A stretch of 64,000 nt of DNA from NCBI GenBank assembly GCA_019235885.1, contig JAFAKB010000018.1, positions 1 through 64,000 on the forward strand, written 5' to 3'. A model generated the notes under the pieces. The model was not told the origin of the DNA. It saw only the letters and a list, made by a program, of their open reading frames with translations, and made no database searches. The stretch is from Candidatus Eremiobacterota bacterium (lineage in GTDB: Bacteria; Vulcanimicrobiota; Vulcanimicrobiia; Vulcanimicrobiales; Vulcanimicrobiaceae). A program made the position numbers and the translations under genes. Below, piece after piece: positions 48,528 through 50,114 of the stretch. Positions within the stretch are counted from its first letter, which is position 1, and each line of letters starts with the position of its first letter.

Positions 48528-48941
48528 TCAGCTTCGGAAATATCTGTCGATGAAGTCGCCGTATGGCGTTCCGGCGACGTCGAAGCCCGCTTCCGTGACC
48601 GCTCGCAGAGCGCCGGACGCGCCCGTTCCCTGTTGCTCGGCAGCGATGATCCCCGCCGCGACCGCGGCGCGCGTCCCGCCGGCTCAATGGACGAGGACCG
48701 AACCCTCACGCCCGGCAACCGCGTCGCGAATCCGGTGAATGTCTTCCTTCGTCACCGTGTCGATTGTCCACGGCACGGACGTGTAGTCGACGTCCGTCCC
48801 GGCGAGCGCTGCGGCGGTGTCGTTCCCCTCTTCCGCGTCGCCGCGAATGTTGACGACCGTCCGGAAGCGGCCCGACGTCAGCTCGTCCGCCGACGGCTGC
48901 CCGCCGACCACGATTCCCCCGATTGTAGCAGCGTTCTTCAT
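48528..48941 (-). CDS. DUF442 phosphatase with in-frame TGA at the catalytic Cys (candidate selenoprotein)
   Basis: A 137-residue frame if TGA at 48684-48686 (codon 86) is read through. The first 85 residues are a DUF442/Blh-type phosphatase (TIGGIVVGGQPSADELTSGR; VVNIRGDAEE) ending SVLVH, and the frame resumes at once with AGGTRAAVAAGIIAAEQQ and then VTEAGFD up to a normal stop. Family members have HCxxGTR here, so the TGA replaces exactly the nucleophile Cys. Twenty bases after the TGA a 6-bp stem closes a GGTC loop, as in E. coli fdhF SECIS. Either this is a Sec-containing phosphatase or a TGC/TGT-to-TGA mutation killed the gene. No sel genes are in the window. Confidence 0.75.
48654..48669 (-). 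promoter_or_regulatory. SECIS-like hairpin after the in-frame TGA
   Basis: On the minus strand CGCCGC-GGTC-GCGGCG forms a perfect six-pair stem with a GGTC tetraloop, starting 14 nt after the TGA, with the loop 20 nt after it. Bacterial SECIS elements recognised by SelB sit at this distance, and the E. coli fdhF loop is also GGTC. GC-rich sequence makes chance hairpins common, so this is suggestive only. Confidence 0.5.
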
Positions 48942-49046: not shown

Positions 49047-49712
49047 CTATAATGGCACAGACCGAACGATCTCGTAGCGATCGATACGCGCCCCGTCCCA
49101 GACGAAGGCGAGCTGCTCGGAGATATCGTCCACGCGCGTCACCGCCGCCGGCCGGAAAATCCCATAACAGGTTCCGCCAGGAGCCCGCACGCTGTCGTAC
49201 CAGACGCCGTCCGCGCCGCGCTGCCGAAGCTCGTGACCGAGGCGCTGCGCGGCACCGTACTTCAACGGGTCGGGATTGTAGATGGCCATCGCGCCACCGC
49301 TCGCCCGACGTACGTCAGTGATATTTCGATCGTCGAGTCGGAGTGTCAGCGCGACGCGCGGAATGCGGCCCGCAGGAGCGGCGCTTGCAGACAAGTATCG
49401 CGCCGCGTGGTAGGCTGATTCGCGCACAGCGACGTCGAGCGAGTCCCCTGCGTACAAGACGCCGAATGTGCCCGGAGAAAATCGACTTGGACCGGGGCGA
49501 AGAAACGGCCCCATAACGATCGCCGCGTGTGGGCCGCCGTAGCGATCGCTCACCGGGATGATTCGTAGCGCTCCGGCCGCATCCCGCGCGAGAGGATCGA
49601 TTCGTGCACGAATCTCAAGGAGCGTGTCCAGGTCCGCCGGATCGTCGACTAGCTCGGCAAGCGCGGCCAACGGCGGCCGAGGATCGGCGACGACGCGCCG
49701 GAGATCTACCAA
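49047..49712 (-). CDS. RES-domain toxin
   Basis: A 221-residue RES toxin from a TTG start (MVDLRRVVADPRPPLAALAE). The RES signature is GTFGVLYAGDSLDVAVRESA near residue 85, and ALTLRLDDRNITDVRR plus AQRLGHELRQRGADGVWYDS follow. RES toxins act on NAD+ (hydrolysis or phosphorolysis), as shown for MbcT and others. The gene overlaps the Xre antitoxin by seven bases in the usual antitoxin-first order. Length is at the long end for the family. Confidence 0.92.
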   Translation of the reverse strand: MVDLRRVVADPRPPLAALAELVDDPADLDTLLEIRARIDPLARDAAGALRIIPVSDRYGGPHAAIVMGPFLRPGPSRFSPGTFGVLYAGDSLDVAVRESAYHAARYLSASAAPAGRIPRVALTLRLDDRNITDVRRASGGAMAIYNPDPLKYGAAQRLGHELRQRGADGVWYDSVRAPGGTCYGIFRPAAVTRVDDISEQLAFVWDGARIDRYEIVRSVPL

Positions 49713-50077
49713 CCTTGGCGCGCGAGGTCGAGATACCGTCGCACGTCGATAAGGTCGCCCATAAGGCCCGACGTCATCCGGTTCAACGGTGGTTCATCGC
49801 CGAAGTCGCGGTTCGGCCGCCGCACCCATTCATCGGCGATCGGACCACGGCCGAACAGAGCGGCGAGGTTTTCCCAGATGGCGATGAGATTCGCGACTCG
49901 CTCGCTCACGTCCGGCGATATCTCCCGGTCTGGAGAACCGGACATCCGACGCAGCGTGCGCTGATGGACACCCAGCAGTCGCGACGTCTCCGCAGCGGTG
50001 AGCCGCCAGTGCTCGGCGATCCGCAGTACTGCGCCGAGGGCGACCGTCGCGGTAGAATGCGGTGCAGTTGTGGACAT
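49706..50077 (-). CDS. Xre/MbcA/ParS-type antitoxin
   Basis: A 123-residue antitoxin. Residues about 12-55 form an HTH (HWRLTAAETSRLLGVHQRTL) and the C-terminal domain (EPPLNRMTSGLMGDLIDVRR) is the DUF2384 toxin-binding part, ending at YLDLARQGW. I chose the ATG at 50077 over 50107 because the sigma70 promoter at 50086-50114 would start transcription at about 50079, making the mRNA leaderless and leaving 50107 upstream of it. It neutralises the RES toxin and probably represses the promoter; ATGTCC half sites flank the start. Confidence 0.9.
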   Translation of the reverse strand: MSTTAPHSTATVALGAVLRIAEHWRLTAAETSRLLGVHQRTLRRMSGSPDREISPDVSERVANLIAIWENLAALFGRGPIADEWVRRPNRDFGDEPPLNRMTSGLMGDLIDVRRYLDLARQGW

Positions 50078-50085
50078 CTGACCTA

Positions 50086-50114
50086 ATAATGCGACGATAA
50101 CGGACATTTGTCAA
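50086..50114 (-). promoter_or_regulatory. Promoter of the RES-Xre module
   Basis: On the minus strand a perfect TTGACA (50109-50114) is separated by 17 bp from CATTAT (50086-50091). Two GNCARATGTCC-like direct repeats (around 50102-50112 and 50073-50082) overlap the -35 and the start, likely antitoxin sites. Confidence 0.75.

Follow-up and report, generated by a model that had tools for sequence, protein, structure and literature searches.

The question raised by this locus is whether an in-frame TGA codon in a DUF442 gene is decoded as selenocysteine (Sec), or whether it merely interrupts a damaged gene. The gene lies within the first 64,000 nucleotides of contig JAFAKB010000018.1 (assembly GCA_019235885.1, Candidatus Eremiobacterota bacterium); this whole stretch of DNA is called the window below. 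In annotation, a selenoprotein gene is easily mistaken for a truncated one. A preliminary description, made from the sequence alone, had presented the gene as a candidate new selenoprotein of a phosphatase family, and had named a point mutation from TGC or TGT as the alternative. The features of the locus are listed in Table 1.

Table 1. Features of the DUF442 locus (positions are those of the window)
Feature	Position	Strand	Remarks
DUF442/BLH_phosphatase gene, inferred selenoprotein	48528..48941	(-)	137 codons + stop; ATG start at 48941
In-frame TGA, codon 86, very probably read as selenocysteine	48684..48686	(-)	Nucleophile position of H-U-A-G-G-T-R (CX4R loop)
SECIS-like stem-loop (GGTC loop on a stem of six pairs)	48654..48669	(-)	
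GGTC apical loop	48660..48663	(-)	
Terminal stop TGA of the DUF442 gene	48530-48528	(-)	

An in-frame TGA at the nucleophile codon

Retranslation of the gene agrees with the preliminary description: codon 86 is the sole internal stop, SVLVH precedes it, AGGTRAAV follows it, and 51 sense codons then lead to the terminal TGA. The MKNE-like N-terminus is the common start of the homologues, which supports the gene start. When the TGA was read as Cys, the product matched PF04273 (BLH_phosphatase) above the cut-off (32.8 against 26.1 bits, E 9e-8). The TGA occupies the column of the family's nucleophile Cys, which five orthologues have there. Directly upstream of the gene, a Xre/MbcA/ParS-type antitoxin gene, then a RES-domain toxin gene, occupy positions 49047-50107 (-) of the window; they are likely a Xre-RES toxin-antitoxin pair.

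Among five members of the genus, pN/pS was 0.352 for the codons before the TGA and 0.335 for those after it, and the two wrong frames downstream gave values of 1.5-1.9. Purifying selection is as strong after the TGA as before it. This equal constraint on the 51 downstream codons, one of which encodes the active loop's invariant Arg, argues against a programmed truncation, in which the UGA would terminate translation and the downstream part would be a minor product or would function as RNA. Sec insertion in bacteria generally competes with termination; nothing specific supports the programmed truncation, however, and it is regarded as very improbable.

Conservation of the TGA and of a downstream stem-loop

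Homologues were searched for first in 60 relatives, and then in all 149 genomes of the phylum that were available for comparison. The source organisms belong to the little-studied candidate division WPS-2 (Eremiobacterota), and G004, a genome of the same genus, is the MAG CALEOJ01. Close homologues were found in 21 genomes. At the codon aligned to codon 86, 16 of them have TGA and no other internal stop (G000, G004, G007, G008, G010, G013, G015, G017, G032, G037, G038, G039, G040, G102, G129 and G130); whereas the other five have TGC or TGT for Cys (G023, G024, G025, G030 and G090). The preliminary description had proposed this comparison of TGA with TGC/TGT, and it came out on the side of a conserved TGA. 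The 16 TGA genomes are independent assemblies that represent two families and many genera.

Alignment of the Sec and Cys forms showed that every homologue contains the motif H-[U/C]-x-[GA]-[GA]-T-R, and that the invariant positions are E20, L21, R33, E37, R72, H85, residue 86 and R91. A common genomic neighbourhood surrounds Sec forms (G013 and G130) and Cys forms (G023, G025, G030 and G090), and therefore the two forms are orthologues. At least two switches between Sec and Cys are placed on the tree. One Cys form (L014) is nested among Sec forms with a tree support of 82/88; it keeps most of the stem described below, and has lost the GGTC loop. This pattern is the one expected after a reversion from Sec to Cys. 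Outside these genomes, the plasmid search returned distant Cys homologues only, and no homologue was found on viral contigs. A wider contig scan recovered only the already known WPS-2 relative; its patterns were derived from one sequence, and it says little outside the phylum.

A second copy of the gene is present in the same-genus genome (L028, G004:C164:9462-9839), and contains extra stops of both TAG and TGA. This copy is a true pseudogene, a decaying paralogue, which shows how decay looks in the DUF442 family.

The six-pair stem with a GGTC loop that had been reported 20 nt past the TGA was found as stated. The GGTC sequence is located at the stem tip, with the same 20 nt between it and the TGA, in all 16 TGA genes; six pairs are formed, except in L046 and L049 (5/6). 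Among the 16 distinct sequences, 97.9% of the stem cells are paired, and two-sided changes occur in four of the six pairs. Not one of 500 shuffles came up to the real stem in paired share or in covariation score, the signal was destroyed by sliding the partners 1-3 columns, and RNAalifold recovered the same helix unaided. The Cys genes have GACC, AGTC, AGTC, GGTG and CACC at the four loop positions, so GGTC occurs in 0/5 of them. A Fisher exact test of GGTC against the Sec/Cys state gave p = 5e-5, with relatedness not corrected for. With its covariation and invariant loop, the stem is SECIS-like.

In E. coli fdhF, a GGTC-apex stem lies a short distance after the UGA. The DUF442 stem resembles this element, and also the SECIS of the SelD gene in the same genome, in having a GGTC apex shortly after the UGA; however, its sequence differs from both, and the stem is short (six pairs). 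With the T of the TGA as nt 1, the loop of the DUF442 gene begins at nt 24; in fdhF it begins about two nt earlier.

These data also bear on the possibility that a point mutation or a sequencing error changed TGC or TGT to TGA in one genome, leaving a pseudogene. The degraded copy L028 indicates that paralogue decay does occur in this family; however, the TGA has been kept in 16 independently assembled genomes, the downstream region is under purifying selection, and the stem covaries. The spread of the TGA across two families and many genera, together with the stem covariation, excludes this explanation, and practically no credence is left to it.

Probable selenocysteine insertion and novelty of the family

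The preliminary description had proposed a search for the Sec machinery, and all four components were found in the same genome. These include tRNA-Sec (75.2 bits; ARAGORN concurs, anticodon TCA), SelB (275.6 bits, contig C25), SelA (498 bits, adjoining SelB on C25), and SelD (369 bits, contig C80). SelA or SelB was over the cut-off in every genome with a Sec form. In the Cys-form genome G090, SelA had no match, and neither SelB nor tRNA-Sec was found over the cut-off. Among the Sec-form drafts, tRNA-Sec was not found in G013 and G039, only a weak tRNA-like match was obtained in G129 and G130, and a whole SelB was not found in G004 and G017. The missing components in these drafts are likely due to contig breaks, although this is not proven. 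The contig of G039, for example, ends just 3' of the gene, and its sister genomes have tRNA-Sec a few kilobases beyond.

The SelD gene of the window's genome (L059, G000:C80:145540-146463) likewise has a TGA in frame (NCAGUASK), and a stem tipped by GGTC comes after it. SelD is, by prediction, a second selenoprotein of this genome, and one of a known kind.

The UGA might also be read as Cys or Trp, through a general recoding or a UGA suppressor, and Cys is indeed the aligned residue in the homologues. However, UGA is the normal stop in the neighbouring genes and at the 3' end of the DUF442 gene itself, the GGTC stem accompanies the UGA, and the Sec machinery is complete. General recoding is rejected on the use of UGA as a stop in these genes, and a reading as Cys or Trp is considered highly implausible.

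The conserved UGA, the covarying GGTC stem, the Sec machinery and the continued purifying selection indicate that Sec is very probably inserted at the catalytic position, codon 86; no peptide or Se-labelling data support this. From the conserved anatomy of the gene and the machinery of the genome, it is inferred that, during translation, SelB would bind the GGUC stem-loop that closely follows UGA-86 and deliver Sec-tRNA(Sec), and UGA-86 would then be translated as selenocysteine instead of causing termination. The predicted product is small, has a single domain and belongs to the DUF442 branch of the PTP fold, and Sec would be the nucleophile in its H-U-x3-T-R (CX4R) anion-binding loop.

Known selenoproteins are mostly thioredoxin-like redox proteins, whereas Sec would here be the nucleophile of a DUF442/PTP-fold protein. 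Natural Sec and Cys orthologues at one locus provide a clean comparison of what Sec contributes to a CX4R anion-binding loop, and might help to decide between a phosphatase and a sulfurtransferase function for DUF442 proteins. The inventory in a review of 2026 (PMC13188914) runs to 119 families and subfamilies of prokaryotic selenoproteins, and neither DUF442, BLH nor a phosphatase is among them by name or domain identifier. No DUF442 phosphatase was found in the available parts of the 2022 list, the GOS paper and the deep-Sep paper. The full-text literature, with subscription papers, preprints and supplementary tables outside the scope, gave nothing relevant on a DUF442 selenoprotein, and no relevant paper on selenocysteine or selenoproteins in WPS-2/Eremiobacterota. 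None of the Sec-specific NCBIfam models matched the window protein. The Sec form of DUF442 looks like a real and previously unlisted selenoprotein family, as had been proposed, although a prior mention cannot be ruled out.

Fold, active site and putative reaction

The AlphaFold2 model (pLDDT 96.1, pTM 0.91) has a PTP/dual-specificity phosphatase fold. The nearest solved structures are the DUF442 proteins 3gxg (Z 17.0; 2.5 A over 133 residues) and 3gxh (Z 16.6). Further matches include archaeal and human dual-specificity phosphatases, and NMA1982 (PDB 2f46, Z 14.9). The active loop H-U-AGGT-R is of the CX4R type, one residue short of the classical PTP signature CX5R. NMA1982, also a DUF442 protein with a CX4R loop, was shown to be a true phosphatase that uses Asp71 as its general acid (PMC10716126). 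NMA1982 and the putative phosphatases 3gxg and 3gxh share the fold with the window protein, but have Cys as the nucleophile. In the sequence alignment, without superposition, the near-invariant Thr62 takes the place of the catalytic Asp71 of NMA1982. The adjacent Asp61 is present only in the genus and in a few others.

The second characterized type is Blh, the bifunctional sulfur transferase/dioxygenase (DUF442-ETHE1; NF040641, TIGR01244), whose DUF442 domain is a demonstrated sulfurtransferase with rhodanese activity (PMC5823870). Blh has a CX4R loop (H-C-K-[ST]-G-T-R in rhizobial examples) and a Thr at the PTP general-acid position. Most members of the selenoprotein family contain the segment P-[WFYI]-T-x-x-T-[VLMI]-[ST]; the Blh proteins of rhizobial plasmids have PVTADTITEAD or PVTASTITEAD at the corresponding position. 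The pattern P-x-T-x-x-T-[IVL]-[TS] is common to the Blh DUF442 domain and the selenoprotein family. In contrast to Blh, the window protein has Sec for Cys, consists of a single domain without an ETHE1-like dioxygenase fusion in its 137 codons, and has no adjoining BigR. It remained below the cut-offs of TIGR01244 (42.1 against 85.85 bits) and NF040641 (41.2 against 625 bits).

Sec in an anion-binding loop that is expected to carry sulfane sulfur is also a property of the rhodanese-like selenoproteins (PF00581, forms 1-5; PMC13188914). These belong to another Pfam family; the window protein matched PF04273 only, with no match to PF00581 at E <= 0.001, and its model resembles the PTPs.

Two reactions could be considered for the Sec-containing protein. 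In a PTP-like reaction, Sec would attack a phosphate ester, and the selenophosphoryl-enzyme would be hydrolysed by water. This would be consistent with the fold (Z 17.0 to 3gxg and 14.9 to 2f46) and with the activity of NMA1982, whose loop has equal length (PMC10716126). Moreover, the invariant R91 corresponds to the P-loop Arg, and E37, also invariant, may correspond to the E-loop Glu. However, Asp71 of NMA1982 aligns with Thr62, the residue of the Blh sulfurtransferases, and Asp61 is narrowly distributed. Sec at a phosphatase nucleophile would also be easily oxidised, with no obvious gain. The PTP-like reaction is possible, but rather unlikely.

The reaction that seems likeliest is a rhodanese-like transfer of sulfane sulfur, possibly of selenium, through a Sec-bound persulfide-like intermediate, as in the Blh DUF442 domain. 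Provided that Sec is inserted, we lean modestly towards this sulfur- or selenium-transferase reaction; it is an inference from alignment, and the reaction is untested at the bench. The sub-threshold matches to the sulfurtransferase profiles, the phosphatase activity of NMA1982 and the lack of a conserved sulfur-metabolism neighbour speak against it. It is favoured over the hydrolysis of a phosphate ester because of the Blh-like Thr62 and P-x-T segment, and because Sec-containing rhodanese-like forms are known (PMC13188914). The term phosphatase in the preliminary description holds for the fold and the Pfam name; whereas the function is uncertain, and the general-acid region is closer to the Blh-type DUF442 sulfurtransferases. 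The protein might be a natural selenoenzyme on the PTP fold, and in the boldest proposals Sec-bound selenium would be passed to SelD, or a selenophosphoryl intermediate would make it a true seleno-phosphatase; these are doubtful, and are offered only tentatively. The handover of selenium to SelD is hinted at by the position of the gene beside selA-selB in family f2.

The all-against-all comparison of ORFs in the 21 neighbourhoods revealed no functional neighbour that accompanies the family throughout, and no conserved sulfur-metabolism neighbour; only synteny within subsets and the vicinity of selAB in family f2 were observed. In the latter (G037, G038 and G039), the gene is about 2.2 kb downstream of selA-selB. 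One block of this family (L037 2600-16008, G037:C71) comprises the gene with selA, selB, an ABC-transporter ATP-binding protein and an RNase D-like gene. The ATP-binding protein is molybdate-transporter-like by eye, and tRNA-Sec is found about 7 kb further on.
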